Below are positions 9,926-28,154 of a DNA stretch of 36,930 nucleotides, piece by piece (the first letter of the stretch is position 1; the number at the start of each line of letters is the position of its first letter). The notes below the pieces were generated by a model. It was not told the origin of the DNA, made no database searches, and saw only the letters and a program-made list of their open reading frames with translations. The DNA is from an uncultured Lentisphaeria bacterium (GTDB taxonomy: Bacteria > Verrucomicrobiota > Lentisphaeria > Oligosphaerales > Oligosphaeraceae). The translations under genes were made by a program, and so were the position numbers. Location of the stretch: the NCBI GenBank assembly GCA_945827525.1, contig CALZPA010000004.1, positions 1 to 36,930 on the forward strand. The letters are read 5' to 3'.

Positions 9926-9970
9926 GGCCTGGGGGAAGGGAGTGGAGTGGGAGTGGAGCGGGGCGTAGGC

Positions 9971-12900
9971 TCAGCGTGTCTGGAGGGCCTGCTGGAGTTG
10001 GACAATGAGGGTGGCCCAGCGTTCCTTCTGGGCGAGGATGGGGGCGAGCTCCTTGGTGTAGGCGGTGGGGGAGGCGACGATGGCGTCGGGGATGACGAGG
10101 GCCTCGGTGGCCTGCCGAATGAGGTCGGGGCTGGCGTTGGGGAGCTTGGCGTAGGCGTCGAGGCGTTGCTGGAGGATGGTTCGGTATTCCAGATCCTGGA
10201 GGCCGTCGCGGAGGTTCTTGAGACGGGTGGAGGGCCAGGGTGTCCAGTCGGGGCCTGGGTACATGAGGTTGCCGCCGCCGTTGGTGGCGGAGGGCGCGGC
10301 GTTCTTGTTGAAGACGCTGCGGAAGAAGGGGACCCAGGGGACTTCGGGCCAGCGGGCGCCGTTGCACATGCGCTCGCGGCAGTCGTCGGTCATCCACTGG
10401 AGGCCGTGGATGGCCTTCTCCTGCTCCTTGAGGCGGAGGTGTTCCTCTGCGTTGGTCTGCCATTCGCGGTTCAGGCCCCAGTAGAGGAGTCCGGAGATGT
10501 TGAGTCGTCGGGTCATCCAGGGGATGATGCGCGGGTCGATGCCGGGGGAGTCGAGGTTGAAGTTGGCGTAGGGGGCGGGCGGGTAGTCGGTGGGGTACCA
10601 CCAGACCTGTTCGCCGAGCTTGAGTCGGGCGTCGGCGTCCGTGGCGCTGAAGTGGTCGAAGAGGGGGCACCAGATGTCGACGTAGCCGAAGAGCCGTTCG
10701 TCGATGTGGGAGGTGTTGAGGCGTGGGATGTCGGGGAAGTCCTGCCTGGTCTGGCGGAAGGCGTCCTGCATCTGGGGGAGTTTGTCGGGGTAGCAGAGGA
10801 TTTCGTCGAAGCCGAAGGCGATGACGCGGTTTCTCCAGCCGTTGCGGTCGATGGGCTCGAGGTTGCGGGCCATGTTGTCGCGGTTTTTGGCGGCGTCGAT
10901 GATGGGGAGGTAGATGTTCTTCATGCCCCGCTTGAGGCAGTGCCGGATTTCGTCCTCGGAGAGGAAGGCTCGGTTGCCGCACCAGAGGTTCTGCGGGTCG
11001 AGATGGTGGTCGAGGATGAAGTCGAGGTAGCGGAGTCGCCTGTCCTGGGGCATGGGCTTGCCGTAGAAGGCGCTGGCCCAGGCGGGCGTGAAGCAGAAAG
11101 CGGTCGAGAGGGAGAATTCGTCGGGCAGGGCGAAGGGAAGGATGGTGACGTTGAGGGGCAGTGAGAGGTCAAGGGAGGGCTGTCCCTCGCGCCGGATGCG
11201 CGCCGTGAGGCGGAACGCGGCCTGGCCGGTGAGTCCGCGCGGGGCGGCGAGGTCGAGCCAGAGTCGGCTGAGGTGGGTGGCGGAGAAGGTATGGGAGGGG
11301 GCGGCGAGCGGGACGAGGACGTCGGGGACGTCATGCTGGACGGGGGCGTTCCGGAGACAGGTGCGGATGTCGCGGACCTCGAACGCGGAGACGGCGGGCA
11401 TGAGCTGGCGGGCGAGGTCGTCGAGTGGCTCGATGGCGAGCGTGACGTCGGCGGCGGGGAGGTGTCCGGGGATGATGGCGACGGTCTGGAGGGAGCCGGT
11501 CTCGCCCTGGGCGAGGACGAGTCTGCGGACGGGCTGGACATTGCCGCAGTAGGCGTCGGGGGCGACCTTGACGGTGGGCGCCTCGGTGAGGAGGACGCAG
11601 CCGTCGCGGTGTCCGGGCTTGCCGGGCGCGAAGAGCGCGGAGAAGCGTGAGATGTCGGCCTCGAGGGCGGCGAGGCTCAGGTTGAGCTGGGACAGGCGGT
11701 CGAGGGCGGCGAGGCGAGCGGCGAAGGGTTCGTCGGCGTCGCCGAGGATGTGGGCGAGGTGGTCGAACTGGGCGTGGCAGTCATCGAGGCGTTTCCGGAA
11801 GGGGTTGGGGTTGAGCTGCGGCAGTTGGCGGAGGCGGCTGGCGGTGTCGTCGAGGCGCATCTGGGGGAGGAAGCGCAGGCGGAAGAGTGCCTCCTCGAGC
11901 CGCGTGGTCTCGGGCTGGTCAGGTTCATAGTCGAGGAGGGCAGCGAGGGCGAAGCTGTCGGTGTGGTGGAACGACTGGGTGGGAGGCCAGGCGGCGACGT
12001 GGTGGGCTGGGTTGTTCTCGCGTCCGGCGAGGAGCTTCCAGACCTGTGCGTGGGAGGGTGTGGCGCCGAGAGGGCGGAGAGGGATGGTCATGGTGGCCGT
12101 CCAGCCGTGTTCGCCGTGCTTGACTGTGGCCGTCCAGCCGGAGTTGAAGCCGGGGTCGCGCTGTTTGGAGCCGACGGTGCAGGCGGCGTCGTAGCGGGTG
12201 CCGAGGGAGTTGACGGCGAAGTGGAAGTAGCGGTTGGAGGAGGGGTCTGGCATGAGCATGAGCTCGGCGCAGTCGTCGCGCCAGACTTTGCCGTCTGGGG
12301 TGGTTTCGCCCTGTTGGCGCCGTGCCAGGTCCGAGGCGAGGCAGGTGAACTGGGCGTGGAGGGCGCTGCGGGTGAGGAGGAGCCGGACGGTGGTCTGCTC
12401 CCGATGGGTGGGCAGGAGGGTGATGGCGGGTGCGGCTGACCAATCGTGGGAGGAAGGTGCGTCGTCGCTGGGCCTGATGGGGAGGGCGAAGGCGCTGAAG
12501 GGGGGAAGGGCAAGGGCGGGACGCGGGAAGCCGCGGCGTTCGGGGGCGGAGACGGTGATGTCGCCGAGGAGGGTCTCGGAGGGTTCGGTCTCGCTGCCCT
12601 CGATCCAGAGCGCGGCGGGCGTCTCGGCGTCGGGGTGCCGGAACTGGATGTCGGCAAGGGCGGGCTGGCTCATGTCATCGACGAAGATGCTGTAGGTGCG
12701 GCTGAGGGAGCTGATGACATAGCGGACATGGTGCCAGGTGTTGTGGGCGAGGGTGGGGCCGTCGAGCCAGCGTCCGTTGCTGTTTGGGGTGAGCTTGCCG
12801 TTGCGGAAGAGGACGGCGGCGAGCTGACGGCCGCGGGCGTCGCGGACGAAGAGCATGTAGCGCGCGGAGGGGGTGACGGGGTTGAGCCAGTAGTCGACGA

Positions 12901-13171
12901 GGGTGACGTCGGCGTTGGCCTGGCGGAGCTGGTCGCCGAAGGCGGGGCTCGTCCAGGAGGGCGTGTGGGTGTTGCCGCCCTTGGTGGTGACGAGGCGGAG
13001 GGCGTGGCGGACGGGCGCGTCGGCGGGGGGCGTGATGACCTCGCGGACGCCTCTGGTGGTCGGCTTGAGCTGCGCGTCGGCGAAGGCTTCGCGGTAGAGG
13101 ACGGTATGGCTGGCGGCATGGAGGGCGGCGCCCAGCGTGAGCAGGGCGATGGCGGTCAGAAACATCTTCAT
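9971..13171 (-). CDS. secreted multidomain DUF4091 (GH123-like) protein with sugar-binding domains
   Basis: The 1066-aa product has a clear signal peptide ('MKMFLTAIALLTLGAALHA'). The start at 13171 is supported by GGGAGAA 7 nt upstream; the longer frame upstream is non-coding. After the signal comes a beta-sandwich-like region (about 25-215), then a CBM9/DOMON-like segment (about 235-400, 'WRDDCAELMLMPDP'). A long middle part leads into a C-terminal DUF4091/GH123-like barrel. Its tail shows 'GGNLMYPGPDWTPWPSTRL' and 'LRDGLQDLEY', typical of DUF4091. The Asp789-Glu790 pair in 'GFDEIL' fits the Asp-Glu catalytic pair known for GH123 N-acetyl-galactosaminidases. Many DUF4091 proteins have no proven activity, so the substrate is unknown. 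Confidence 0.85.
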   Translation of the reverse strand: MKMFLTAIALLTLGAALHAASHTVLYREAFADAQLKPTTRGVREVITPPADAPVRHALRLVTTKGGNTHTPSWTSPAFGDQLRQANADVTLVDYWLNPVTPSARYMLFVRDARGRQLAAVLFRNGKLTPNSNGRWLDGPTLAHNTWHHVRYVISSLSRTYSIFVDDMSQPALADIQFRHPDAETPAALWIEGSETEPSETLLGDITVSAPERRGFPRPALALPPFSAFALPIRPSDDAPSSHDWSAAPAITLLPTHREQTTVRLLLTRSALHAQFTCLASDLARRQQGETTPDGKVWRDDCAELMLMPDPSSNRYFHFAVNSLGTRYDAACTVGSKQRDPGFNSGWTATVKHGEHGWTATMTIPLRPLGATPSHAQVWKLLAGRENNPAHHVAAWPPTQSFHHTDSFALAALLDYEPDQPETTRLEEALFRLRFLPQMRLDDTASRLRQLPQLNPNPFRKRLDDCHAQFDHLAHILGDADEPFAARLAALDRLSQLNLSLAALEADISRFSALFAPGKPGHRDGCVLLTEAPTVKVAPDAYCGNVQPVRRLVLAQGETGSLQTVAIIPGHLPAADVTLAIEPLDDLARQLMPAVSAFEVRDIRTCLRNAPVQHDVPDVLVPLAAPSHTFSATHLSRLWLDLAAPRGLTGQAAFRLTARIRREGQPSLDLSLPLNVTILPFALPDEFSLSTAFCFTPAWASAFYGKPMPQDRRLRYLDFILDHHLDPQNLWCGNRAFLSEDEIRHCLKRGMKNIYLPIIDAAKNRDNMARNLEPIDRNGWRNRVIAFGFDEILCYPDKLPQMQDAFRQTRQDFPDIPRLNTSHIDERLFGYVDIWCPLFDHFSATDADARLKLGEQVWWYPTDYPPAPYANFNLDSPGIDPRIIPWMTRRLNISGLLYWGLNREWQTNAEEHLRLKEQEKAIHGLQWMTDDCRERMCNGARWPEVPWVPFFRSVFNKNAAPSATNGGGNLMYPGPDWTPWPSTRLKNLRDGLQDLEYRTILQQRLDAYAKLPNASPDLIRQATEALVIPDAIVASPTAYTKELAPILAQKERWATLIVQLQQALQTR

Positions 13172-13308
13172 GCGTGGTTCTCCCGATGAGTGAGGGATGT
13201 CGCGAGGCCAATGGCTGGAGAGCGTTCGGGACGGTTGGTGGCGTCGTGCGTGTGGGGCGAGGGGCGGCTTCCCCTCCAGCCCGACGGCGAGGCGTCGACG
13301 GGTCAGAG

Positions 13309-13337
13309 GCCCCTTCGGCCCGTTTGGGCGAAGGGGC
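13309..13337. other. strong hairpin in the 236-nt spacer between the two DUF4091 genes
   Basis: GCCCCTTCG (13309-13317) pairs with CGAAGGGGC (13329-13337). A bulged G and an inner CCC/GGG extend the stem around a GTTT loop. There is no T tract on the minus strand. It lies in the largest gap inside the ten-gene cluster (13172-13407), which otherwise holds no gene. A role in processing or partial termination is inference. Confidence 0.5.
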
Positions 13338-13407
13338 ACTCTTCGGTTGCTCGCCGTGTGTTTTTCCGGGCGAGGGGGCTGTCCGCCGTTTCTGTGGCTG
13401 TGGCGGG

Positions 13408-15069
13408 TCAGCTGCGTCGTTGGTTGGCGGCGGCGATGGCGCGGTTGAGCCGTTCGCGGAGGTCGAGAAGCCACTGTGGGTCATGGGGATAGTGGCGCAT
13501 GTCGAGGGTGTAGTCGAGGCCGTCGTGGATGAGGGCGACGGTGGCGTCGCGACCGAGGAGGCGTTCGTGGAGCTGGAGGGCGCGGAGGTCCTGGAGTCCC
13601 TCGGTGAAGGACTCGAAGGCGATGGTGTCGATGGGGCCGTCGGGGCCGGGGAAGACGTTGAAGGAGCCGCCGCCGACGTGGGCGCGTGAGGCGGTGGTGT
13701 CCTTCCAGGGGTCGATGTCCCAGTCGAGCGAGAACTGCGAGAACCAGAAGTTGTAGCCCCAGTGGAGGAAGCCGTCCATGCGATAGAGGTAGAGGAGGAC
13801 GCCGATGATGCGGGTGCGGATGGATGGGACGCCGTACTGGCGGTTGGGGAGGTTGTCCTGGACATTGCCGCAGTAGTAGACCCAGCGCTGGGCGACGGGC
13901 TCGTCGCGGAACTGGTCGACGGTGACGGTGACGGGCACGGGGCGGCGCATCAGGCCGGTCCGGAAGAAGTCCAGGTCGGACATGGCGTCGATGATGGGGA
14001 ATTCCTCCTCGTCGATGAGGGCCTTGACGATGTCGGAGGCCTTGCGGTAGGAGTCGAGATGGACGAGCGAGGGCTCGTCGGAGATGTGGAAGTAGCATTT
14101 GCGGGAGAGGTTGCGGGAGCGCAGGAACTGGACGAGCTGCGGGAGGAGCTGTCCGAGGAAGTCCTGGTACTCGGGGCTGTCGGCGGCGACGTCCCAGCCG
14201 AAGCGGCGGGTGCCGTTGACGATGATTTTTGGGGTGAAGCGCGCTCCCCACTGGGTGAAGATGTGAGACATCTCGAAGAGTTCGATGCCATGCTGCCGAG
14301 CGAGGGCGATCCAGCGGTCGAGGTTGGAGAAGTCGAACTGGTAGTGTCCGTCGCGCTCGGTGATGTCGAGGAGCTGGGCGGTGGGGCGCTCGTGGCCAAC
14401 GCCGGTGTCGAGAGGGACGCTCCAGAGCGGCGTGTAGAGGACGTTGTTGCCGTGGGCGGCCATGTCGTCGAAGTAGCGTCCGAGGAGGTTCCAGAGGGGT
14501 TCGGTCCAGGGGGCGAGGCGGTAGTGGTGGGCGATGCAGTCGACGTAGAACCAGTTGATGTTGTGGAGGGTCTGCGGCGGTAGGGCGAAGGGGAGGATCT
14601 CCAGGGTGAGGGTGGCGGTGGCCTCGGGGAACTGCCGGGCGGGCCAGGGAAGGGTGGCCGGCGAGTCGGGGATGGCGCGGAAGGTGATGGGGAAGGTGCC
14701 GGGCGCGGCGTCTGCGGGCAGGTCGACGGTGACCCAGACGGCCATCCAGGCGCCCCACAGCGCGCGGAGCGGGCGGTCGTCGGCGGGGACGAGCGGTGCG
14801 GGGTAGAGGCCGGGCTCGGCGGAGATCTTGAAGGGGTCCGAGCGGACGGCCGGATAGTCGCAGGGGACGAGCTGGACTTCGCGGAGGGAGATGCGGTCGC
14901 GTAGGGGCGAGTCGGCGACGAGCCGGAAGCGGTCGTTGGCGTCAGAGCGGATGGCGACCTGGCAGGCGACGCGCTCGCCTGCGGCGGCGGAGAGGGCGGT
15001 CAGCGGGGCGGCCTCCAGCTCGGGGCGGGGCAGCACTTTCTCAAGGGAGCTGATGATGCGGATTTCCAT
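13408..15069 (-). CDS. DUF4091 (GH123-like) protein without signal peptide
   Basis: The 553-aa product starts directly with 'MEIRIISSLEKVLP' and has no signal sequence, so it should act in the cytoplasm. An N-terminal beta-sandwich region (about 1-160) is typical of DUF4091/GH123 proteins. A TIM-barrel-like part follows, with 'CYFHISDEPSLV', whose Asp331-Glu332 matches the Asp-Glu pair of GH123. The C-terminal signature 'GGGSFNVFPGPDGPIDTI...FTEGLQDLRAL' is classic DUF4091. It is a compact relative of the secreted downstream gene. The two may process the same glycan on either side of the membrane. No Shine-Dalgarno motif precedes the start. A glycosidase role is likely; beta-N-acetylhexosaminidase specificity is only a possibility. 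Confidence 0.85.
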   Translation of the reverse strand: MEIRIISSLEKVLPRPELEAAPLTALSAAAGERVACQVAIRSDANDRFRLVADSPLRDRISLREVQLVPCDYPAVRSDPFKISAEPGLYPAPLVPADDRPLRALWGAWMAVWVTVDLPADAAPGTFPITFRAIPDSPATLPWPARQFPEATATLTLEILPFALPPQTLHNINWFYVDCIAHHYRLAPWTEPLWNLLGRYFDDMAAHGNNVLYTPLWSVPLDTGVGHERPTAQLLDITERDGHYQFDFSNLDRWIALARQHGIELFEMSHIFTQWGARFTPKIIVNGTRRFGWDVAADSPEYQDFLGQLLPQLVQFLRSRNLSRKCYFHISDEPSLVHLDSYRKASDIVKALIDEEEFPIIDAMSDLDFFRTGLMRRPVPVTVTVDQFRDEPVAQRWVYYCGNVQDNLPNRQYGVPSIRTRIIGVLLYLYRMDGFLHWGYNFWFSQFSLDWDIDPWKDTTASRAHVGGGSFNVFPGPDGPIDTIAFESFTEGLQDLRALQLHERLLGRDATVALIHDGLDYTLDMRHYPHDPQWLLDLRERLNRAIAAANQRRS

Positions 15070-15136
15070 GGGACATCGGGGGGTGCTGGGTGATGGGATG
15101 GTGGCGGCGGGTGTGGTCGGTCAGTTGTTCAGTCAG

Positions 15137-18046
15137 TCAGTTGTCGCAGGGGACGAGTCGGAGCCAGTCGAGGTTGAGTCCGCGTCCGCAGTCGTTGGTG
15201 AGGGTGAGGGTGTGGGTGCCTGGCGTGAGGGTGAGGAGGACGGGCTGTCCCTTGAGCGCGGGGTAGACGTTTTGCCAGTCGTCCTTGGCGGAGCTCCAGC
15301 CGAAGGTGTTGGGGAAGGCGGTGCGCTGGGGGGCGTCGCCGTCGAGCGAGACGAGCCGGGTGGCGCCCTCGAGGTGGTCGCAGCAGGCGCGTGCCTGGAG
15401 GAGGTAGCGTCCGGCCTTGGGGACGGAGAAGGTCCAGGCGAGGGCGTGTCCCTCGCGGTCCCAGAGCTTGAACGCCTTGCCGTCGGCCCCGGGCTTGCCC
15501 TCGACGGAGACGCCCCGGCTGGGCGTGTCGCCCTCGGCGGTCTTGGGGAGCGTCTGTCCGGAGAAGTCCTCGGCCTGGATGATGATGGCGTCCTGGCTGC
15601 GCGGGGCGAGTCCGAGGGCCTTGAGGTCGGGCTGGCGGTACCCGCTGAGGAGCTCGTGGGGGACGTCGGTGACGCGGATGGTGAAGGTGATGGCGGCCTT
15701 GGTGACGGGCTGGTCGAGGGTGACGGAGAAGCGGTTGGGTCCGGGGCGGTCGAACTGCCTGATGACGCGCTCGGTCTTGGCGGTCCAGGGGCCGCCGTCG
15801 ACGGCGATGGCGATGTCGAGAGCCTGGCGTCCGTCGGTGACGATGAGCCGCTGCGGCTCGGGGCTGGCGACGGACGCGCCGCTGATGAGGGCGGAGGAGA
15901 AGGTCTGTGGGCTGGAGAATGCGACGCGGTCGGTGAGGGTGATGGTTTCGGCGGCGCGGTCGAGGACGACGGTGCGGGTGAGCGAGGTGAGCTCGGGGAC
16001 GTCGTAGGCGTCTGCGAAGTCGAGCGTGAGCTCGTCGCGCAGGTCGGAGAAGCTGGTGTGGATGAAGGTTCCCCGGGCGTTGCGTCCGGGGCGCTGGAGC
16101 TTGCCGGCGACGACGGGGACGGAGTGTCCGAAGGAGTTGAGGAGATTGAAGGTGTAGCGGAGGTTGCTGAAGGTCTGTCGGGTGTAGGTTTCGGCGCCCG
16201 GGTCGATGAGGAGTCGGCTGGAGTCGGCGGCGATGAGGAAGGAGCCGACGTCGTTGTGGTTGTGGTGTTCGCCGTTGTGTCCGCCCTTGATGGCGATGCC
16301 GAAGGGGATGCCTCTGGCGGTGGTGGAGCGGAGGAGATGGATGCCGGCGTCGGGGAAGGCGGAGCGGAGGGGGAAGGTGGCCTTGTCGGGGAGCTGCTGG
16401 TTGAGTCTGGCGGCGGCGTCGAAGGCGATGAGGGGCATGATGGGGAAGGCGGAGTTGAGGACGGAGGCGGGGACGGGTCTGCGGTTGAGCGCCTGGGGCC
16501 AGTGGCGGGCGATGAGGAGCGAGTAGTGGTCGGAGGGGCGGGCGTTGACGCCGCAGTCGGCGAACGCGGGCGCGATGCCCTCGGAGAGCTGGATGCGGGT
16601 GGCGAAGGCGGCGATGTTCGGCAGGCTGGGGTGGTCGAAGATGGAGAGCTTGCCGTTGGTCTCTTGGAGGATGTGCTCGCCCATGACGAGGAAGTGGCCG
16701 AAGCCGTAGAGCCAGTAGCCGATGCCCTCGCTGCAGTAGCCGTCGGGGGTGAAGCCGGCGAGGAAGCGCTGGTTGGAGAGTTCGGCGGTGGCGATGACCT
16801 CGGCGCGGATGGTCTTATCGGGGACGAGGGTGAGGATGCAGTTGACGAGGTTGCCGGTGCAGACGGCGTTCCAGTTGTGGGTGGCGCTCATCCAGCTATG
16901 GCCGGTCATGTCCTCGCCGCGGACGCTGCGGAGATAGGGGTCGATGGCGCGGCGGTGCGCCTCGCGCCGGATGGCGGCGCGGGTCTCCGGCTTCAGTCGG
17001 TCCTGGAACCAGTAGTCAACGGTCGCCAGGTCGGAGGCGCGCTCCGAGCAGAACAGGTCGACGTAGAATTTCCTCTGGTTGAAGTTGGAGAGGGAGGCGT
17101 CGTGCGCGGGGAGAAGCCAGCTCCTCTCGGCGAGGATGGCGGCGATGTCGCGCTCGAGCGCGGGGAGGAAGCGTCCGCGGTTCTCGAGGGCCTCGGCGAC
17201 GGCGAGGGTGTAGAGGCGCCGTCGCCTTTCGAAGTAGGGCCGTTCGTAGGTGGTGCGGTTGCCGGTTCTGTTGTAGAGGAGGTAGTCCTCGTCGCGGAGC
17301 TCGGGCGGCTCGGAGGCGGCGAATTTCTCGGCCTGGGCGAGGAGGGCTTCACGGCCGGTGGTGTTGGGGAGGCTGTCCCACTTGTCGCGGCGGTCGACGG
17401 GGAAGCCGAGGCCGCGTGGCTCGTCGTTGAGCAGGGCGGCGATGTCGGCGACGCGCTTGGGTGAGAGTGGCGGCAGGCCGGTGAGGGTGACGAGGGCGAC
17501 GCCCTTGGCCTCGTCGGGGCTGAGCTCCTCGAGGCGGAGGTCGTCGAGGGCGTCGTGGGCGAGGGCGCCGTTGGCGGAGTGGATCCAGATGCGCGCGGTG
17601 ACGGCCTTGGGGTCGCGGGGACAGAAATGGAGACGGTTCTCGCGCCAGTTTCGGGACAGCTCCATGGAGAGGACGACCTCGCCGGAGCGGCGGTCCAGGA
17701 GCATCTTGCCGTTGGCGTCGAAGTAGCGGATGTAGACGGAGGTCCCCTGGGAGGTCTCGTTGAGCCGGCGCGCCCAGAAGGAGAGGCGATAGACGGCGCC
17801 CTGGCGGACGGGGAAGGGTTCGGAGAGCAGGTCGGAGCCGACGGTCGCGGAGTCGTCGCGGATGACGAGTCCGAGCTTGCCCGAGTGCGCGGCGCGTGGC
17901 TCGGCGGTGCCCATGGCGTTGCGTGTGGTCCAGTGGGCGAGTCCCTGCTCGAAGTCGAGGTTGGGGACGTCGAGGAGCGTGGCGGCGGAGAGGGCGGTGC
18001 CTGTGAGCAGCAGCGCCAGCGGAGACAGAAGCGGCTTTGTGGTCAT
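15137..18046 (-). CDS. secreted heparinase II/III-family polysaccharide lyase with terminal sugar-binding domains
   Basis: The 969-aa product starts at 18046 with a signal peptide ('MTTKPLLSPLALLLTGTALSA'); a weak TGAGG lies upstream. Residues about 25-175 look like a CBM4/9-type beta-sandwich ('NLDFEQGLAHW'). An alpha/alpha-toroid region (about 230-530) follows. The heparinase II/III beta-sheet domain then begins at the hallmark around residues 588-603, with E593, H594, H595, N596, H597, N598 and D599. Residues about 820-969 ('IIQAEDFSG') resemble a CBM6/35-like module. Enzymes of this superfamily cleave uronic-acid-containing polysaccharides such as heparin, heparan sulfate or alginate by beta-elimination. 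The substrate cannot be read from the sequence. Confidence 0.88.
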   Translation of the reverse strand: MTTKPLLSPLALLLTGTALSAATLLDVPNLDFEQGLAHWTTRNAMGTAEPRAAHSGKLGLVIRDDSATVGSDLLSEPFPVRQGAVYRLSFWARRLNETSQGTSVYIRYFDANGKMLLDRRSGEVVLSMELSRNWRENRLHFCPRDPKAVTARIWIHSANGALAHDALDDLRLEELSPDEAKGVALVTLTGLPPLSPKRVADIAALLNDEPRGLGFPVDRRDKWDSLPNTTGREALLAQAEKFAASEPPELRDEDYLLYNRTGNRTTYERPYFERRRRLYTLAVAEALENRGRFLPALERDIAAILAERSWLLPAHDASLSNFNQRKFYVDLFCSERASDLATVDYWFQDRLKPETRAAIRREAHRRAIDPYLRSVRGEDMTGHSWMSATHNWNAVCTGNLVNCILTLVPDKTIRAEVIATAELSNQRFLAGFTPDGYCSEGIGYWLYGFGHFLVMGEHILQETNGKLSIFDHPSLPNIAAFATRIQLSEGIAPAFADCGVNARPSDHYSLLIARHWPQALNRRPVPASVLNSAFPIMPLIAFDAAARLNQQLPDKATFPLRSAFPDAGIHLLRSTTARGIPFGIAIKGGHNGEHHNHNDVGSFLIAADSSRLLIDPGAETYTRQTFSNLRYTFNLLNSFGHSVPVVAGKLQRPGRNARGTFIHTSFSDLRDELTLDFADAYDVPELTSLTRTVVLDRAAETITLTDRVAFSSPQTFSSALISGASVASPEPQRLIVTDGRQALDIAIAVDGGPWTAKTERVIRQFDRPGPNRFSVTLDQPVTKAAITFTIRVTDVPHELLSGYRQPDLKALGLAPRSQDAIIIQAEDFSGQTLPKTAEGDTPSRGVSVEGKPGADGKAFKLWDREGHALAWTFSVPKAGRYLLQARACCDHLEGATRLVSLDGDAPQRTAFPNTFGWSSAKDDWQNVYPALKGQPVLLTLTPGTHTLTLTNDCGRGLNLDWLRLVPCDN

Positions 18047-18069
18047 GGCTGTGGCCTCAGTTGGTGTGT

Positions 18070-18078
18070 GGGGGGGGG
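18070..18078. repeat. G9 homopolymer (C9 on the coding strand) upstream of a heparinase gene
   Basis: Nine consecutive Gs on the plus strand lie in the 44-nt gap between the MBL/SGNH fusion gene and the heparinase start, about 24 nt before the ATG. Tracts of this length can slip during replication. No reading frame crosses it, so any effect would be on the mRNA leader. Confidence 0.5.
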
Positions 18079-18090
18079 CGGAGTGAGGGT

Positions 18091-19581
18091 TCAGCGGTCG
18101 AGGAGCGGCTGGAGGCGTTTGGCCCAGACCGCGTAGCCGTCCTCGTTGAGGTGGCAGTTGTCGCGGAAGAGGGTGGTGTTGAGTTCGCCGTGGCGCATCA
18201 GGCTCGGCGTGAGGTCGACGAGGGTGATTTCGTAGCGGTTGGAGAGGCGCTGGCGGAGGAGCTCGTTGAGTTCGCTGATGGGCTTTCGGTAGGGTTCGTG
18301 GTTGAGTCCGCGCGGGAAGACGCACATGAGGATGATGTGGGTGTCGGGTGACTGGCGGAGAAGCTCGTCGATGATGGCGCGGATGCCCTGGAAGGTCTGT
18401 TCGGGCGTGTCGCCGGGGTAGTTGGGTGTGCGGGTGAGGTTGTTGGTGCCGATGTGGATGACGGCGAGTCGCGGGCGCTGGTTGGCGAATTCGCCGTTGC
18501 GGAGTCTCCAGAGGACGTTGCAGGTGCGGTCCCAGCCGAAGCCGAGGTTGAGGACGCTGCGCCCGCCGAAGAGCTTTTGGTAGGACTCGGGGCCGTGGGT
18601 GGTCTCCCAGAAGTGGGTGATGGAGTCGCCGATGAGGATGATGTCGTGGTTGCCGGCGTGGGCCTCCTCGAGCTTGCGGCGGTGACGCTCGTGCCAGTCG
18701 TAGCAGTCATCCTCGAGGCGGGGAGTTGGGATGCAGGCGGGCGGGAGGTCGGGGGGCGTGAAAAGGTTGACCTGGCCGGGGACGGGGATGGCGGCGTTGA
18801 GCCAGGGATACTTGAGCTGGAAGTAGCTGAGGAAGCGGTTGGGGTCCTCGGTGTTGCCGGGGAACATGTCGAAGTGTCCGGGGAGGGTGAGGGCTGGCTG
18901 GAGGAGTCCGGCGAGGTCGGCGGCCTCCTGGTAGGTCATGTTGCCGATGCAGCCGCGTCCGAGTCGCTCGGCGTCGCGGCCATTGATGGGGAGCATGACG
19001 GCCGTGAGGGGCATGAAGCGGCGGAGACGGCGCACCATGCCGTCGTAGAGGCAGGTGTCGCCGGCATGGAGGATGCGGACGCCGTTGCCCTCGATGACGT
19101 ACATGAGGCTGGGGTGGTTTCCGGTGACGGGATTGCGGCTGAGCGTCTCGTGGGCGGCGGCGATGGCGTGGATGGTGATGCCGTTGACTTCGGTGGACTC
19201 GCCGTCCTCGAGGCCATGAAGATGGCCTTCCGACAGTCCGATGGCCTTGCTGACGGCGTCGCGGCACTCGGCGGGCAAGAGGAAATAGAGGAAGGAGTGG
19301 ATTCTGATGAGTCTCTTCCAGGCGTCTCGGTCGATGTGGTCGGTATGGTCATGGGTGCCTAGTACCATGCTGACTGGATGGAACTGATCCAGGGTCATCT
19401 GGGGAGGGACGAGCCGCTTGGGCGAGGGGCTGAGATACGGGTCACAGGCGATGATGGTCTCGCCCAGCTTGAGCAGATAGCCCTGCTGGCCAAGATGGCA
19501 CCAGGCGAAATGGCCAAAGGGGACGTCGATGGCGTCAAGGGGAGACTGGAAAAGGGGGTTGTCGCTGAGATGTGTGAACAT
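18091..19581 (-). CDS. fusion of UlaG-like metallo-beta-lactamase and SGNH/GDSL esterase
   Basis: The 496-aa protein has two enzymatic halves and no signal peptide. Residues about 20-270 form an UlaG-like metallo-beta-lactamase domain with the metal motif 'HDHTDH' (77-82), His144, Asp175 and His236. Known relatives include L-ascorbate-6-phosphate lactonase and phospholipase D-like hydrolases. Residues about 310-496 form an SGNH hydrolase closest in pattern to PAF-acetylhydrolase Ib/acetylxylan esterase types. Block I is 'GDSIT' with Ser320, 'NLGFGWDRT' is block II, 'GTNN' (378-381) has Asn380, and 'DNCHL' has Asp474 and His477. Both active sites look intact. The linker (about 271-308) is proline-rich and then charged. 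A lactonase plus O-acetyl esterase acting on sugar products is inferred. The leader is C/A-rich without a Shine-Dalgarno site. Confidence 0.88.
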   Translation of the reverse strand: MFTHLSDNPLFQSPLDAIDVPFGHFAWCHLGQQGYLLKLGETIIACDPYLSPSPKRLVPPQMTLDQFHPVSMVLGTHDHTDHIDRDAWKRLIRIHSFLYFLLPAECRDAVSKAIGLSEGHLHGLEDGESTEVNGITIHAIAAAHETLSRNPVTGNHPSLMYVIEGNGVRILHAGDTCLYDGMVRRLRRFMPLTAVMLPINGRDAERLGRGCIGNMTYQEAADLAGLLQPALTLPGHFDMFPGNTEDPNRFLSYFQLKYPWLNAAIPVPGQVNLFTPPDLPPACIPTPRLEDDCYDWHERHRRKLEEAHAGNHDIILIGDSITHFWETTHGPESYQKLFGGRSVLNLGFGWDRTCNVLWRLRNGEFANQRPRLAVIHIGTNNLTRTPNYPGDTPEQTFQGIRAIIDELLRQSPDTHIILMCVFPRGLNHEPYRKPISELNELLRQRLSNRYEITLVDLTPSLMRHGELNTTLFRDNCHLNEDGYAVWAKRLQPLLDR

Positions 19582-19641
19582 GGCTGGTGTCTGTGTGTGG
19601 GAGGGATGCGGATGGAGCGGGAGGAGGCGCAGGGGCGTCTT

Positions 19642-20721: not shown

Positions 20722-20763
20722 GGCGATGGCTCCCGTGAGGTTTGTGGGTGGGATGGGGGCGGT

Positions 20764-22797
20764 TCAGGTGAGGGAATAGGAGAGGAGGCACCAGGAGCGC
20801 GGGCGCGGCATCCGGAGCTGGAGGTGGCTGCGGTCGAGCATGACGAAGGCGACGTCGAGGCAGTTGGTGGCCTCCAGCGTGAGGGTTGCGGTCGGCGGGA
20901 GCGGCTCGGCCAGGGTGAGGACGGCGGTGGCCGACGGCGTGACCTCGCGGAAGAGGAGGAGGTGTCCGGCGCGAGGTGCGATGGCCTGGAAGCCGGTGTG
21001 GGCGCAGCCGTCGGGACGGTCGCCGAGGGGATGGATGTCCGCCTGGGCAAAGTCGTGGCGATGGCGGCGGTAGACGGCGATGACGTGTCGCAGCTCGTCG
21101 CGCTGCGGCTGGTCGAGGCTGGAGAGCTCCATCCAGGCGAGGGGGTTGGCGAGCATGACGGCGGCGAATTCGTAGTCGAGGGAGTAGGTGGCGGGTGCGA
21201 GCGGGTCGTTGCCGTAGCGGTCGGCGTTGCGGCGGTTGTTGAGGAATTCGAGCTGGAAGCGGTTGAGTGGGATGAGGTGAGCGAGGTCCCAGGCGTTGCG
21301 CAGGGTGGCGTGCGGGTAGTAGTTCTGCCAGTCGGTGTAGCGGTTCTCGACGAAGAGGGTGCCGAACGGGCGGCGGTAGAGGTATCCGAGGCGGCTTTGG
21401 GCGGTGATGTCGAGGTTGGTGCGGATGGCGTGGTGGGACTCGGTGGCGACGGCCTCCAGGAGGGCGAGGAAGTTGGCCTCGCCGCGCTTGGACTGGAGGT
21501 TGACGCCGTCGAGCTTGAACTGGGCGATGCCGAACTGCCGGTGGAGCCGGAGGAGCGTGTCGGCGTCGTCGCGCCAGTGGCGGAAGTCGTGGGAGGAGTC
21601 GGGCGAGAACCAGAGGCCCAGCTGGACGCCCAAGCGGCGGGCCTGCTCGGCGAGCGGCGCCAGCCCGCGAGGGAATTTCCGCGGATGGACATCCCAGAAA
21701 TGGGGGTCGCTGTCGTAGTACCCGGACCAGACGCCGTTGGCGGCGAGCTTCGAGTTGGCGGTGACGCCCTGCTGCCAGCCGTCGTCGATCTGGACGATGT
21801 CGATGCCGAGGTCATGGGCGGCCTGGATTTCGCCGAGCATGAAGGCCTCGGAGACGCGTGCGTCCTGGTTGCGGTCGCCCCAGGTGTTGGACATGATGAA
21901 CGTCTCGTGGCCGCCGGCGCGCGTCTGGCGGCGGTAGAGTCGGCGGAACTCGGTGAGGAGCGTGTGCACGTCGCCGACGCCGACCGTCGTGCCGTAGGCC
22001 TGGCGCCAGCCGTCCGACGGGGACGCCTCGCCGTCGGGCGTGGCGGGCTCGGCGCCGAGGGCGAGGAGGTCGTTGCCCTTGACGTAGGCGCTGACGCGCT
22101 TGGCGCAGAGCTGGCAGTTCGTGGTGGGGCAGTCGTTGACGGCGAGGATGGCGCGTCCCGAGAGGGGGTCGGAGACGAGGAAGAGGTTGCCGTGGACGTG
22201 TCCGGACGCATTCTGGTAGAGGAAGCGCTCCTCGGCGGAGACGAGGGTGTCGTTGGCGTCGGTCCGGTCATGGAGGCGGAACGCCTGGAGGCGGAGGTGT
22301 CGGCGTCCGAGTGGGACGACATCCGTGGTGCCGGCGGGTGGCGTGAAGCCGCTGGGGCGCTGCGGCGCTGCGGTCTCGATGCCGGTGGGTGCGGTCTCGC
22401 CGGCGTCGTGCGGGTGGTCGGCGGTGGCCGGCTGGCCGCGGAGCTGTCGGTCCAGGGAGATGAAGGGCGCGTGGGGGAAGACGGTGTAGGTGGTCTGGAC
22501 GAGCTGGCGGGCGGAGGCGACGGTGACGGTCAGCCGCAGATGCGGGTCGGTGAGGCCGCCGTCGTCGTCGAGGGCGGCCTCGGCCTGGAGGGCGGGCTTG
22601 TCGCCTGGCGCGGGCATCTCGGCGGGGAGGGGAGGCGCGGCGAGGCGCCAGACGACTCTGGCGTCCTTGTCGGTGAGGGTGAGGGGCAGCAGGTCGCCGT
22701 GTCGCCATACGAAGGTGCGTTCGATGCGGCTGTTGCCGAGGGTGAGCGTGTCGTCCTCGAGGAGGGCGTAGCAGTCCTGGAAGCGGAAGGGAAGCAT
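20764..22797 (-). CDS. GH36-like alpha-galactosidase family protein
   Basis: The 677-aa product resembles clan GH-D (GH36/GH27) alpha-galactosidases. An N-terminal beta-sandwich (1-285) precedes a TIM barrel (about 290-590) and a small C-terminal beta domain. In the barrel, 'FIMSNTWGDRN', 'IVQIDDGWQQG' (Asp338-Asp339) and 'FKLDGVN' match family motifs; Asp430 in KLD is the expected nucleophile. The acid/base is not certain; Glu484 or Asp489 near 'VENRYTDW' are candidates. No signal peptide is present, so it would act on imported fragments. The leader before the start is a C/A tract without a Shine-Dalgarno site. Confidence 0.82.
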   Translation of the reverse strand: MLPFRFQDCYALLEDDTLTLGNSRIERTFVWRHGDLLPLTLTDKDARVVWRLAAPPLPAEMPAPGDKPALQAEAALDDDGGLTDPHLRLTVTVASARQLVQTTYTVFPHAPFISLDRQLRGQPATADHPHDAGETAPTGIETAAPQRPSGFTPPAGTTDVVPLGRRHLRLQAFRLHDRTDANDTLVSAEERFLYQNASGHVHGNLFLVSDPLSGRAILAVNDCPTTNCQLCAKRVSAYVKGNDLLALGAEPATPDGEASPSDGWRQAYGTTVGVGDVHTLLTEFRRLYRRQTRAGGHETFIMSNTWGDRNQDARVSEAFMLGEIQAAHDLGIDIVQIDDGWQQGVTANSKLAANGVWSGYYDSDPHFWDVHPRKFPRGLAPLAEQARRLGVQLGLWFSPDSSHDFRHWRDDADTLLRLHRQFGIAQFKLDGVNLQSKRGEANFLALLEAVATESHHAIRTNLDITAQSRLGYLYRRPFGTLFVENRYTDWQNYYPHATLRNAWDLAHLIPLNRFQLEFLNNRRNADRYGNDPLAPATYSLDYEFAAVMLANPLAWMELSSLDQPQRDELRHVIAVYRRHRHDFAQADIHPLGDRPDGCAHTGFQAIAPRAGHLLLFREVTPSATAVLTLAEPLPPTATLTLEATNCLDVAFVMLDRSHLQLRMPRPRSWCLLSYSLT

Positions 22798-22848
22798 GGG
22801 GCGTGGGTGGGGGTGGGTGAGTGGGGTTGTCAGGTGGCTGCGGATGGT

Positions 22849-23727
22849 TCAGGCGAGGCGTTCGAGCCAGGCGATGACGGCGGTGGGGACGATTTCGTGG
22901 CCGCCCTCGAAGAGGGTGACGGTGGTCTGGTCGGCCTGGCGGCGGTAGAGCGCGTGGTGGTCGCCGAAGCCGGGAAGGTCGTCCTGGAGGCGAAGGCGGG
23001 AAGGGACGGCCTCGCCGTCGGTCATGGCGTCGATGTCCTCCTGGGGGATGCGCGCCTCGGGGAGGACGCAGGCGTTGAAGGCGTGGAGGGCATGGGAGAC
23101 GGGGACGGGGCCGCTGTGGCCGTCATGGATGCCGGCGTTGATGTCGATGACGCAGGGGAGATTGGGCTCGAGGTAGGTGAGCGGCGAGCGGTGGGCGGCG
23201 TTGGCCGCGGCGGCGGAGTCCGATTGTGGGTTGCCCCCGCAGACGGACTCGATATGGGCGGCGTAGCCGGCCTGGATGGCGGCGGGCTGGCGATGCCAGG
23301 CCACGAGGTCGGCGATGGGGACCCACGCGGAGACGCCCTTCCAGAGATGGGGATGGCGTCCGGCCATCAGGAGGGTGTGGAAGCCGCCGCCGGAGCAGCC
23401 GCAGAGGAAGACATTGGCGGGGTCGGCCTGGTAGGTGCGGATGGCGTGGGCCACGGCGTCGGCGATGTCCTGGACGGCGGCCTCGTGGCCACAGGACTGC
23501 GGGTTCCAGGACGGGCCGCGGAAGTGCGGCAGGATGAGGTTCCAGTCATGGCGGTCGCACCAGCGCGAGAGCTCCTGCGGCTCGGGCTGGCGGTAGCCCC
23601 AGCTCCAGGCGTGGAGATAGACGAGCAGCGGACGCCCGGGGCGAGTGGCCTGCAGGACGCGCGCGGGCTGCTCGCTCAGGTCGTAGGAACACGGGTAGGT
23701 GATGTCCTGGGTGATGAATTCGGTCAT
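22849..23727 (-). CDS. alpha/beta hydrolase, prolyl-oligopeptidase/esterase type
   Basis: The 292-aa product starts at 23727 (MTEFITQD). The open frame continues about 700 nt upstream, but only as a shadow of the next gene. It shows the alpha/beta-hydrolase fold with the nucleophile elbow 'CGCSGGG' (Ser112), an acid at Asp202 in 'IHDGHSG', and His277 in 'FEGGHEIV'. 'PHFRGPSWNPQSCG' after the oxyanion strand resembles S9-family peptidase/acyl esterases. No signal peptide is seen, and no Shine-Dalgarno sequence precedes the start. The gene sits 25 nt before the start-distal end of the heparinase gene at 23753. A deacylase or de-esterase acting on glycan fragments is inferred. Confidence 0.85.
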   Translation of the reverse strand: MTEFITQDITYPCSYDLSEQPARVLQATRPGRPLLVYLHAWSWGYRQPEPQELSRWCDRHDWNLILPHFRGPSWNPQSCGHEAAVQDIADAVAHAIRTYQADPANVFLCGCSGGGFHTLLMAGRHPHLWKGVSAWVPIADLVAWHRQPAAIQAGYAAHIESVCGGNPQSDSAAAANAAHRSPLTYLEPNLPCVIDINAGIHDGHSGPVPVSHALHAFNACVLPEARIPQEDIDAMTDGEAVPSRLRLQDDLPGFGDHHALYRRQADQTTVTLFEGGHEIVPTAVIAWLERLA

Positions 23728-23752
23728 GGTATGGTGCGCGTGGGGGGCGAGG

Positions 23753-26683
23753 TCAGTCTCCGTCGGCGAGGACGAGCTTGAGGCTCTGGCCGTCGAGGCG
23801 GAAGAGGGCGGCCCTGGCGTCACAGGCGATGCCGGCGGCGGCGAGGCGGCGGCGTGAGCCGTCCTGGGAGACGAGAAGGAGGTAGGTGTCGCCGTTGGCC
23901 TGGGCGCGGATGGCGGCGACGCCGGCGTCCGAGGGCAGCATCTCGACCGAGAGCTGTGGGGCGGGCTTGGCGGGGTCGCTGAAGGCGAACGCGGAGGCGA
24001 AGACGGCGCTGGGCGAGTCGACGCGGTTGAGGACGAGGCTGAAGCGGACGGTGGGCGGGTTGCCCTGGCCGCTGGCGCTGAGGAGAGTGCCAGGTGCGGA
24101 CGAGGCGTGCGCCATGGAGAGCCGGACGTCCTGGTGTCTCCAGACGGCTGTGGCGGTGCCGTCATGGGGGAGGGACTGCCAGTTCTTCGCCCAGGCGTAG
24201 CCGTCGCCCCTGGGCGCGTCGCAGGGCTGCTGTGTAGCGGGTGGCGTGTCGGTGCGTTCGCCTCGGGAGTGGAAGGCGTATTCGAGCCGCCGTGGGTTGC
24301 CGGTGGTGTCGGTGGCCCAGAGGAGGTCGAGGAGCGTGTCTCCGATGAGGGCAAGGGCCCGTCCGGCCTTGAGGTTGGGGTAGATGGGGCCGGCGTCGGC
24401 GACGATGAGGCTGGCGTCCGGGAAGGCGGCATAGGCGAGGCAGCGTCCGGTGGCGGGTGTCTGGCTCTTGCCGTCGACGACGAGGGTGTTGTGGGAGATG
24501 GTCTGGCGGTACCAGCCTTGGTGCGCGGGGTTGCCGTAGGCGATGCAGCCGGGGTCCTCGGCGAGGAGGGTTCCGTGTGCCCAGAGGACGAAGTTGAGCT
24601 TGTCGGGGTGTCCGTGTCCGCCGCCGTGCTCGCCGTAGTCGATGGCGACGTAGTTGGGCGGCATGGTGGCGGCGGCGGTTCCGGGCGTCTGGGAGCGGAG
24701 GACGGCGATGCCCGTCTCCAGGTAGTTCTCGGAGGAAGCGGGCTTGCTGGCGGACTCGATGGTGTCGCGTCCGAAGAGGGTGGCGTAGAGGTTGCGGCGG
24801 TCGGTCTGGGCGAGGACGGCGCCGTGGAGGGGGTCGCCCCAGAAGGCGTAGGCGAGTTCGTAGTGGGTGGCGTTGGCGCGCGGGTCGAAGCGGACGCGGG
24901 CGGTGTCGTGGAAGGCGGGGAGCTCGGAGGTGGGGGTGAGGAACTTGAGCGGGCCGTCGAAGAGGAGCTTGAAGCGGTCTGGGATGGGCGCGAGGCCGTT
25001 GAGGCGGATGGCGATGGCGATGGGTTCGAGGGCGGAGGTGGTGTAGAAGTGGTATCCCCAGGCGCGCTCGTACCACTGTCCGTCGGAGGTGACGCCCTTC
25101 TCGACCTGCCGGAGGAAGCCGTTGGGGCCGAAGATGGCGGCTCGGATGAGGTCGCCGCGGTTGTAGAGGAGTCCGGCGAGCCCGTAGGCGGAGGTGTGCC
25201 AGCAGCAGATGTTGTGGATGCCCCACTGGTGGTTCTTGATGTGGTAGGCGGCGGGGAGGATCATCTTTTCGCCGATGGCGCGGAAGTCGTCGTCGGAGAG
25301 GGTGTCGCGGATGGCGTCGGTTCCCTGGACGATGCTGATGAGCCAGATGGCCTCGTCGAGCGTCTGGGGGTGGACGTGTCCGCCGCCCTTGGTGGGCTTG
25401 CCGTGGATGTCGTGGAGCGGGTAGCCGAGATAGCGTTCGGCGTAGCCGAGGAGGATGTCGCGGGCCTTGTCGGCGTAGCGGCGGTCGCCGCTGATGAAGT
25501 AGGCGACGCCGAGGTCGCGGACGGCGTGCGCGAGCCGGTCATGGTCGCGGGAGAGGACGACATCGTCGTAGGGGTACCCGGAGTACTCGGCCTTGCAGGT
25601 GGGGCAGATATGGAGGGTGGGCGTCTTGGTCTTGAGGGAGGAGCCGCACTTCTTGCAGCTGTACCAGTGCCACCACTGGGCGCCGCGCGGCGGATAGGCG
25701 ATGTCGGCCTTGAGCCAGCCGTCCATCGCCTTGCGGTGGCTCTCCCACCAGAGGCGGGCGGGCTCGCGGTCACGGACGCGCCGGCGGATGTCGTCGCGGC
25801 AGTCGGCGTGGCAGAGCAGGGCGGGCGTGGGGAGGGGGCGCATCATGGGTGAGGCGGTCTCGGCCGTGACGGACTCGGCTGCAAGGCCGCCGTCTCCGAG
25901 GAGCTGGACGGAGAGGTCGAACGGCGTGAGCTCCGGCGTGCCCTCGGGCAGCTCGAACGCCACACGGAGCGGCGTGGTACCGCCGGCGGGCACCTGCAGG
26001 CGCTCGGGCAGGCCGCGGAACGACAGCCCAGCCAGGGACGCGGCGGTCCGGATGGGGATGTCGGCAGGCTGGTCAAGGCGGCTGGAAATCCGGAGGTCAA
26101 GATGGCCGCTGCGGGGCGAGGTCCAGCCGACGCCGTGTCCGGCCTGGGTGAGGGTGATGCCCTTGCGGACGTAGCGCAGCCGCGAGAGGCGGATGACGAC
26201 GGGCGAGGGCGTCTGGTTGTCGACGCGGAAATGGAGGGCGCGGAAGTTGACGGGGTTCTCGCCCCAGCGGAACATGGGGTTGCGGAGGTCGATGGCGGCG
26301 GTGTGCCAGGCCCTGTCGGCGCTCTCGGGAATCTGGAGCTGCCAGGTGGCCTGGTACCCGTCGGCCAGCGGCCTGTCCATGATTTTGCAGCCGAACCAGA
26401 CCTGTGGGTTGGAGATGGTGTACTCGAACCGCAGCTCATCGAAGTCGACGGCGCGCGGGGCCCAGTCGCCGAGGTCGAGCGGGACGGCGGTGACCTTGCT
26501 GTTGGCGGGGATGGAGAGGACGGCGACGCCGCCGCGCCGCGGGTCGCGCTCGAAGGAGATGAGGGGCGACTTCCAGGAGTCGCGGGGCGGGTCGAAGTCG
26601 TCGAGGACGTGCTCGGTGATGACGGACTGGGCGGCGGCCGCGAGAGGCAACAGCACGGTCATGGTGATGGCGAGGCGGCTCAT
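23753..26683 (-). CDS. secreted heparinase II/III-family lyase with Cys4 zinc-ribbon-like insert
   Basis: The 976-aa product has a signal peptide ('MSRLAITMTVLLPLAAAAQS'). Residues about 25-190 look like a carbohydrate-binding beta-sandwich, followed by an Ig-like region (about 195-300). The alginate-lyase/heparinase toroid (about 315-640) contains CxxC pairs at Cys343/346 and Cys360/363, a probable zinc ribbon. The heparinase II/III beta domain carries 'DYGEHGGGHGHPDKLNF', with Glu685, His686, His690 and His692. AAAGGA of its ribosome binding site overlaps the last codons of the M20 gene, only 7 nt away, so translation is probably coupled. An uronate-glycan lyase is likely, but its family number and substrate are open. 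It is clearly distinct from the other heparinase protein in the cluster. Confidence 0.88.
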   Translation of the reverse strand: MSRLAITMTVLLPLAAAAQSVITEHVLDDFDPPRDSWKSPLISFERDPRRGGVAVLSIPANSKVTAVPLDLGDWAPRAVDFDELRFEYTISNPQVWFGCKIMDRPLADGYQATWQLQIPESADRAWHTAAIDLRNPMFRWGENPVNFRALHFRVDNQTPSPVVIRLSRLRYVRKGITLTQAGHGVGWTSPRSGHLDLRISSRLDQPADIPIRTAASLAGLSFRGLPERLQVPAGGTTPLRVAFELPEGTPELTPFDLSVQLLGDGGLAAESVTAETASPMMRPLPTPALLCHADCRDDIRRRVRDREPARLWWESHRKAMDGWLKADIAYPPRGAQWWHWYSCKKCGSSLKTKTPTLHICPTCKAEYSGYPYDDVVLSRDHDRLAHAVRDLGVAYFISGDRRYADKARDILLGYAERYLGYPLHDIHGKPTKGGGHVHPQTLDEAIWLISIVQGTDAIRDTLSDDDFRAIGEKMILPAAYHIKNHQWGIHNICCWHTSAYGLAGLLYNRGDLIRAAIFGPNGFLRQVEKGVTSDGQWYERAWGYHFYTTSALEPIAIAIRLNGLAPIPDRFKLLFDGPLKFLTPTSELPAFHDTARVRFDPRANATHYELAYAFWGDPLHGAVLAQTDRRNLYATLFGRDTIESASKPASSENYLETGIAVLRSQTPGTAAATMPPNYVAIDYGEHGGGHGHPDKLNFVLWAHGTLLAEDPGCIAYGNPAHQGWYRQTISHNTLVVDGKSQTPATGRCLAYAAFPDASLIVADAGPIYPNLKAGRALALIGDTLLDLLWATDTTGNPRRLEYAFHSRGERTDTPPATQQPCDAPRGDGYAWAKNWQSLPHDGTATAVWRHQDVRLSMAHASSAPGTLLSASGQGNPPTVRFSLVLNRVDSPSAVFASAFAFSDPAKPAPQLSVEMLPSDAGVAAIRAQANGDTYLLLVSQDGSRRRLAAAGIACDARAALFRLDGQSLKLVLADGD

Positions 26684-26690
26684 GGCTTGC

Positions 26691-27995
26691 TTATCCTTTC
26701 TTGTGGTAGCTGAAGCGGGCAAGGGACTGGCGGTACTGCTCGACGGAGAGGCAGTCGGCCTTGTGCGCGGCGACGACGCGGCCGAGGCGGGCGTCGTCGG
26801 CGAGCAGCTCGACGCACATGAGGGCGAGTATCTGGGTGTTCTCGATGTAGGCTTTCTCCTCGTCGGCGACATGGTAGTTGACGGTGTGTCCGCCGCCTGC
26901 GGAGCCGGCGCAGGTGCCGTGGAGTGCGGGCATGATGGCGGAGACGTCGCCCATGTCGGTGCAGCCGTGGGAGAAGCCGCAGGGGACATGGGCGCTCCAG
27001 TCGGGACGGAGGCCATGGACGACGGAGGCGTAGGCGTCGCCGAGGAGATGGTCGTTGTGGAGCGGATAGTAGCCGGCGTAGGAGTCGATGTCGGCGGTGC
27101 AGCCGAGGGCGGCGGCGCAGCCGGTGACGGCGCGGTCGAAGGCCTCGGAGAGCCTGGCGACCACCTCGATGGTGCTGGCGCGGAGCTGGTACTCGAGCGT
27201 GACGGCGTCGGGGATGATGTTGACGGAGGTGCCGCCTCCGGCGATGATGCCGTGCATCCGGACGGAGGGCTCGACGGCGAACTTCTCGCGGAGCATGGCG
27301 AGTGCGGAGAGGGCGAGGGTGGCGGCGGAGAGGGCGTTCTGGGAGTCGCCGGGGTAGGCGGCGTGGGAGGCGCGTCCGCGGAAGGTGACGTTCTTGATGC
27401 AGAAGCCGTTGTGGTCGGCGGCGCCGTAGCCGCCTCCGGCGTGGTTCATGATGGCCATGTCGACGTCGTCGAAGACGCCCTCGAGGATGAGGGAGGCCTT
27501 GCCGCCGAGGGCGTGGATGCGTCCCTCGCGGAGGAGCTGGTCGCGATAGGCGAGCTCGATGCACTCCTCGGCGGGGGTGGCGATGAACGCGACCCTGCCG
27601 GCGAGGCTGTCCTGCGCGCCGGCCTCGCGGAGGGCGATGGCGGCCCCGAGCATGGCGGCGATGTGGGAGTGGTGCCCGCAGGCATGGACGGCGCCGGTCT
27701 TGGGGTCGCAGGCGGGATGGGTGGGCATGACCAGCGCGTCCAGCTCGCCGAGGACGGCGAGCGTCGGGCCGGGCATCGCGCCGTCCAGATTGGCGCGGAG
27801 CCCCGTCAGGGAGAGGCCGGTGGCGGGCTGGTACCCGTGCTGCCGCAGCGTCTTCTCGGCGAGCTCGGCGGTCTTGAACTCGCGGTATCCGGACTCGGGG
27901 TTCTCCCAGACGGTCCTGGCGAGGCTGACGATGGTGTCATGGTGGCGCCGGATGGCGTCCAGCACATCCTGCTTCAACTGCTCCTTGCTGCGCAT
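26691..27995 (-). CDS. M20 (M20D-like) amidohydrolase
   Basis: A 434-aa metal-dependent amidohydrolase of the peptidase M20 family, closest to AbgB/aminoacylase-type members. Ligand motifs include 'GELDAL' (Asp86), 'HACGHHSH' (104-111, with Cys106 and His108 as likely ligands) and 'PAEE' (141-144). The dimerisation domain begins near 'GRASHAAYPGD', and 'GGGTSVNIIPD' is typical of the family. AAGGTG about 7 nt before the ATG at 27995 supports this start. No signal peptide is seen. It is the first gene after the promoter at 28070-28098. Relatives cleave N-acyl amino acids or p-aminobenzoyl-glutamate; here removal of an amide-linked group from a glycan fragment is a possibility. Confidence 0.9.
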   Translation of the reverse strand: MRSKEQLKQDVLDAIRRHHDTIVSLARTVWENPESGYREFKTAELAEKTLRQHGYQPATGLSLTGLRANLDGAMPGPTLAVLGELDALVMPTHPACDPKTGAVHACGHHSHIAAMLGAAIALREAGAQDSLAGRVAFIATPAEECIELAYRDQLLREGRIHALGGKASLILEGVFDDVDMAIMNHAGGGYGAADHNGFCIKNVTFRGRASHAAYPGDSQNALSAATLALSALAMLREKFAVEPSVRMHGIIAGGGTSVNIIPDAVTLEYQLRASTIEVVARLSEAFDRAVTGCAAALGCTADIDSYAGYYPLHNDHLLGDAYASVVHGLRPDWSAHVPCGFSHGCTDMGDVSAIMPALHGTCAGSAGGGHTVNYHVADEEKAYIENTQILALMCVELLADDARLGRVVAAHKADCLSVEQYRQSLARFSYHKKG

Positions 27996-28098: not shown

Positions 28099-28154
28099 TT
28101 GTCCGCAGGGTATTTTTTGCCGTCCGTCCCGGGGTCAAAGGCGGTTTGAGGGTG

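Follow-up and report, generated by a model that had tools for sequence, protein, structure and literature searches.

A predicted lactonase-esterase fusion of metallo-β-lactamase and SGNH domains in a glycan-degradation gene cluster of a Lentisphaeria bacterium

An uncultured Lentisphaeria bacterium of a little-known gut type encodes a 496-residue protein in which a UlaG/UPF0173-type metallo-β-lactamase (MBL) domain and an SGNH/GDSL esterase domain of the PAF-acetylhydrolase-Ib type share a single chain. On balance, we favor its interpretation as a bifunctional enzyme of glycan breakdown that combines two chemistries, those of a lactonase and an O-acyl esterase. The domain combination is what is new here, as the enzyme kinds and their folds are already well known; in the open-access literature searched, nothing was found on the fusion or on an MBL-fold galactonolactonase. 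The initial annotation had proposed that one protein opens a lactone and removes an O-acyl group. This idea is reasonable and, taken as a whole, partly supported, and its lactonase side is strengthened by the gene contexts of stand-alone MBL relatives.

Domain architecture and conserved motifs

The fusion gene (18091..19581) lies on the minus strand of the window, the whole 36,930-nucleotide stretch of DNA analyzed, a point absent from the initial annotation. Its translated frame (18094-19581, minus strand) comprises 496 codons without a stop, starts at an ATG at 19581, and has no earlier in-frame ATG, GTG, or TTG start upstream of that position. Codon-position GC values of 0.64/0.42/0.88 fit a genuine gene of the source genome. 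Some long plus-strand frames in the window merely shadow genes on the minus strand, 8138-11164 and 14891-17464 among them.

The MBL domain spans residues ~22-272 (18766..19518, minus strand) and matches Pfam Lactamase_B_2 (PF12706) at residues 44-237 with 72.7 bits against a cut-off of 27 (E 3.9e-20). Its metal ligands are H77, H79, D81, H82, H144, D175, and H236, the first four within the HDHTDH motif (residues 77-82; 19336..19353, minus strand); the motif and all seven ligands are invariant across 19 aligned MBL sequences. These ligands match the five-His/two-Asp consensus metal set of the MBL superfamily (PMC7846560). A short linker, placed by alignment at residues ~273-286 (18724..18765, minus strand), joins what resemble two complete stand-alone proteins. 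The SGNH domain follows at residues ~287-494 (18100..18723, minus strand) and matches Lipase_GDSL_2 (PF13472) at residues 317-485 with 86.8 bits against a cut-off of 32.9 (E 3.3e-24). Its catalytic set consists of S320, G347/G349, N380, D474, and H477. The nucleophile block GDSITH (residues 318-323; 18613..18630, minus strand), together with S320, G349, N380, and H477, is invariant in 14 aligned SGNH sequences. The catalytic residues of both halves are thus retained at the positions first assigned to them. An AlphaFold2 model built from a 30-row alignment covers both domains with a mean pLDDT of 89.7 and a pTM of 0.86, and both folds find Foldseek matches in the PDB, which bears out the claim of two folds on one chain. 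The Pfam E-values and the model also rule out chance domain matches.

A glycan-degradation gene neighborhood

The fusion sits within a tight minus-strand run. A promoter/terminator scan found no minus-strand terminator-like sites in 9500-28500, an uninformative outcome. Upstream are a heparinase II/III-type lyase (23753..27016; true start uncertain), an α/β-hydrolase esterase (22849..23721; start re-set to 23721), a 677-residue melibiase-like (GH36-type) protein (20764..22797), and, 60 bp from the fusion, a serine β-lactamase-fold hydrolase/esterase (PF00144; 19642..20721). Downstream, a secreted heparinase II/III-type protein with a carbohydrate-binding module (15137..18046) begins after 44 bp and is followed by a strongly matching GH123 protein of the β-N-acetylgalactosaminidase family (13408..15069) and a second, very divergent GH123-like protein (9971..13474; true start uncertain). 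The glycan cluster described at the outset is supported, with heparinase-type, melibiase-like, and GH123 genes flanking the fusion. A D-galactonate-dehydratase-family gene scores above its cut-off in the source genome (331 bits), suggesting that a use for galactonate is possible. Elsewhere in the window, a plus-strand run at 324-8131 encodes a glutamine-amidotransferase-domain protein, CTP synthase, and the carbamoyl-phosphate synthase large subunit, along with a 414-residue frame (2009-3253) without annotation.

Distribution and origin of the fusion

A genome-contig scan recovered full-length homologues, 56-57% identical, in five other species. These genomes (G021-G025) belong to one sister genus (g11) within the window's own family; their records include one Lentisphaeria genome, one Verrucomicrobia genome, and Victivallales bacteria sampled from the forestomach of water buffalo. 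All five encode the homologue without an intervening stop, which leaves neither chance nor loss of a stop codon as an explanation, and an artefact of two genes with a missed stop is ruled out by a frame common to five independent genomes. Searches extended to the order (48 genomes), the class (198), and the phylum (388) gave no further full-length fusions; they covered a sample and were scored on the whole protein, and could miss a very diverged fusion. Genomes outside this group carry one half only or both halves at separate places, and a plasmid search matched the MBL half alone, with 80% query coverage reached nowhere. Among the genomes searched, the fusion is known in only two genera of one Victivallales-type family, in keeping with the rarity first supposed.

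The six fusions form one group in the trees of both halves, with support of 100/94 for the MBL domain and 99/97 for the SGNH domain. The fusion therefore most likely has a single origin that predates the divergence of the two genera. An origin from neighboring genes was not traced, as no stand-alone locus places an MBL gene beside a close SGNH homologue.

Within g11, the fusion takes larger forms. Two loci (L004 and L007, both 6114-9485, plus strand) encode a 1123-residue protein with GH13, MBL, and SGNH domains in that order, and a third (L003, 2-2563, plus strand) holds a partial copy cut at the contig end. The 1123-residue protein begins with a signal-peptide-like segment, followed by a GH13 α-amylase-type domain whose Asp/Glu/Asp residues are at the usual positions (GFRCD at 329, AED at 360, and NHD at 439). 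The two remaining g11 proteins (L005 and L006) are two-domain forms of 515 residues with a predicted signal peptide, and the L005 fusion starts 14 bp after a GH5 gene. No signal peptide was found in the window copy; all signal-peptide calls combine a crude hydrophobicity score with inspection by eye. The same GH13 domain also precedes a different C-terminal part of ~650 residues without a Pfam assignment in two other g11 genomes (L149, 2312-6163; L150, 2-3613, cut; both plus strand). Close SGNH relatives likewise occur as C-terminal modules of other proteins, on an α/β hydrolase (L106, 7988-9643), on a right-handed β-helix protein (L107, 3609-6632), and in a tandem SGNH protein (L011, 7308-8690).

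Stand-alone MBL relatives in probable sugar-oxidation operons

The contexts of stand-alone MBL relatives agree with a lactonase step in oxidative sugar breakdown. We sampled 20 Verrucomicrobiota-type stand-alone MBL loci longer than 5 kb. In half of them (L008, L009, L071, L075, L076, L079, L083, L086, L088, and L090), a dehydrogenase pair lies directly upstream of the MBL gene. Its first member is a zinc dehydrogenase that is conserved at 68-90% identity to its L009 counterpart; its second, between the first and the MBL gene, is another zinc dehydrogenase in six loci and a glucose/xylose-1-dehydrogenase-type SDR in four. Some of these cassettes adjoin an FGGY kinase or a GH35 β-galactosidase. 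The arrangement likely represents an oxidative sugar pathway with an unrecognized MBL-fold lactonase. The MBL half of the g11 fusion is 50-56% identical to a cassette MBL.

A Christensenellaceae locus (L010, 5086-10247) carries a sugar-acid kinase of the 2-keto-3-deoxy-galactonate type, a KDPG-type aldolase, a D-galactonate dehydratase (an equivalog match with 601.7 bits against a cut-off of 311), the MBL gene, and an α-L-fucosidase. Here the MBL occupies the position of the galactonolactonase in the De Ley-Doudoroff galactose route. More distant relatives at 31-36% identity come from annotated plasmid records. In Thermomicrobium roseum, the MBL gene lies near sugar ABC genes, 11 bp downstream of a mandelate-racemase-family (acid-sugar-dehydratase-family) gene; the Shinella gene belongs to a sugar operon that also includes an SDR and two zinc dehydrogenases. 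Association with a sugar 1-dehydrogenase or acid-sugar dehydratase is thus seen for stand-alone proteins in 10 of the 20 loci and in L010, L152, and L153, and for the fusion in none. The other ten Verrucomicrobiota loci lack sugar-oxidation partners, as do most other Clostridia-class loci inspected (L133-L137), one of which has an α-L-rhamnosidase. A further relative at 31% identity, encoded on a Klebsiella pneumoniae plasmid (L155, 7001-7855), has genes for TonB, a TonB-dependent receptor, and an MFS transporter in its vicinity and recurs on many plasmids of Klebsiella and one of E. coli.

The cassette zinc dehydrogenase is present in all five genomes of the window's family with a stand-alone MBL and missing from all six fusion genomes. 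Its absence suggests that the physiological role may have shifted, the fusion having moved away from the dehydrogenase pathway and into polysaccharide breakdown.

Proposed function and alternative explanations

In the proposed mechanism, the two-metal center of the MBL domain (5 His + 2 Asp) would activate water to hydrolyze a sugar lactone and so yield the open acid, with aldono- or uronolactones as the most likely substrates. The SGNH domain, with Ser320/His477/Asp474 and a predicted oxyanion hole around Asn380 and Gly349, would take off an O-acyl group, probably O-acetyl. Fusion would keep two 'trimming' hydrolases close together and at equal dose within a polysaccharide-degradation operon. 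The lactonase activity is probable from the fold and the context of stand-alone relatives, and the deacetylase activity is probable from the fold and conserved residues. By their co-fusion, the two halves may share a substrate, for which the acetylated aldonate or uronate lactones first suggested are candidates. The sugar-lactonase role first proposed thereby gains backing from gene context. More broadly, and only tentatively, the MBL clade may constitute an unrecognized, widespread aldonolactonase family of oxidative sugar pathways that was also captured in one Victivallales-type family as a lactonase-deacetylase module, in some cases behind a secreted GH13 domain, for trimming an acetylated, lactone-bearing glycan. 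Several points count against the favored interpretation: the dehydrogenase missing from fusion genomes, the stand-alone loci that lack sugar-oxidation partners, the promiscuity of UPF0173-type MBLs, and the predicted signal peptides of the g11 fusions, since an exported protein would not meet an intracellular aldonolactone.

These signal peptides also feature in an alternative in which both domains deacylate the decorations of extracytoplasmic polysaccharides, so that the fusion would serve glycan-degrading enzymes as an accessory module instead of taking part in sugar oxidation. The SGNH domain would remove acetyl groups, and the MBL domain would now act as an esterase or open uronic- or sialic-acid lactones in the glycan. 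The joined GH13 domain in two complete and one partial case, the GH5 gene 14 bp ahead of the L005 fusion, and the heparinase-type and GH123 genes around the window copy are all in line with this alternative, as are the missing dehydrogenase partner in fusion genomes and the fusion of the same SGNH family to an α/β hydrolase (L106) and a β-helix protein (L107). We nevertheless regard it as somewhat doubtful, since the window copy lacks a signal peptide and the pocket motifs of the MBL domain (PINGRD, CIGNM, and the metal ligands) are the same as in the stand-alone cassette enzymes.

Two further explanations depart from glycan chemistry or from coupling altogether. Lipid remodeling, with the MBL domain as a phosphodiesterase, phospholipase, or nucleotide hydrolase (of the NAPE-PLD, cyclic-nucleotide, or UPF0173 type) and the SGNH domain as a PAF-acetylhydrolase-like lipid deacylase, is suggested by structural matches that include NAPE-PLD (4qn9) and a cAMP-bound UPF0173 protein (7e3w), and by PAF-AH Ib as the best SGNH match. 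It is unlikely, however, as UlaG ranks above both NAPE-PLD and 7e3w, the neighborhoods of stand-alone relatives are sugar-oxidation operons rather than lipid ones, and the window and g11 neighbors are glycan enzymes. A neutral gene join would leave two independent cytoplasmic hydrolases with uncoupled substrates on one chain. Both halves are widespread as complete stand-alone proteins, the linker is short, and no stand-alone locus has the MBL gene and a close SGNH gene adjoining; yet the fusion has been kept across at least ~43% sequence divergence and two genera with all catalytic residues retained, and the whole of it was taken into a larger GH13 protein, which makes neutrality very unlikely.

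If the lactonase assignment is true, many genes named only 'MBL fold metallo-hydrolase' would gain a testable function as the lactonases of oxidative sugar breakdown. The fusion would then suggest that a single glycan is the joint target of lactone opening and deacetylation, and rumen bacteria would possess, in the secreted GH13-MBL-SGNH protein, an unusual chain of three enzymes.

Comparison with known systems

The MBL half was initially described as UlaG-like, which holds for the nearest fold but not for orthology. Foldseek matches it to UlaG-type structures (2wyl, 2wym, and 3bv6, including the cholerae homologue) at E ~1e-17 to 1e-18 with a target-normalized TM up to 0.74, and UlaG is its top profile match in the PDB (1.5e-23). 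The two share the MBL fold and an HxHxDH motif, and sugar-lactone chemistry is plausible. In contrast, the MBL half is ~20% identical to UlaG, scores 24.1 bits against an NCBIfam cut-off of 306, has no close match to UlaG's N-terminal extension, and is joined to an SGNH domain at a locus where no ula operon is seen. It also keeps the second-site His144, whereas UlaG binds a single Mn2+ (PMC7846560). UPF0173 proteins (Igni18, 6hrg; TM1162, 3x2z; 7e3v) share the five-His/two-Asp binuclear site and a similar core size, with a target-normalized TM of 0.80-0.85, but differ in gene context, in the PINGRD and CIGNM motifs of the MBL half, and in its SGNH partner; the score of 50.4 bits falls below the cut-off of 144 (PRK00685, NF001911). 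Both curated cut-offs are thus missed, which rules out UlaG or UPF0173 orthology and places the MBL half on a separate branch. UPF0173-type MBLs are promiscuous; the activities of Igni18, for one, include those of a lactonase, a lipase, and a phosphodiesterase, among others (PMC7846560).

For the SGNH half, the closest solved relative is PAF acetylhydrolase Ib (phmmer 2.1e-26, profile 1.6e-44), with Foldseek aligning 1wab at a TM of 0.90, 2.1 Å, and 31% identity. All SGNH catalytic residues are common to the fusion, PAF acetylhydrolase Ib (1wab, 3dt6), and bacterial PAF-AH-like esterases. Unlike PAF acetylhydrolase Ib, the fusion is bacterial, lies in a glycan operon, carries SGNH as its C-terminal half, and has no LIS1-type partner. 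The bacterial sialate O-acetylesterase, which removes acetyl from sugars, shares the SGNH fold, but the Phocaeicola vulgatus enzyme (6njc/7pzg) is a weaker match (6.9e-16 versus 1.6e-44). With PAF acetylhydrolase Ib as the nearest solved relative, family membership points to acetyl as the likely leaving group.
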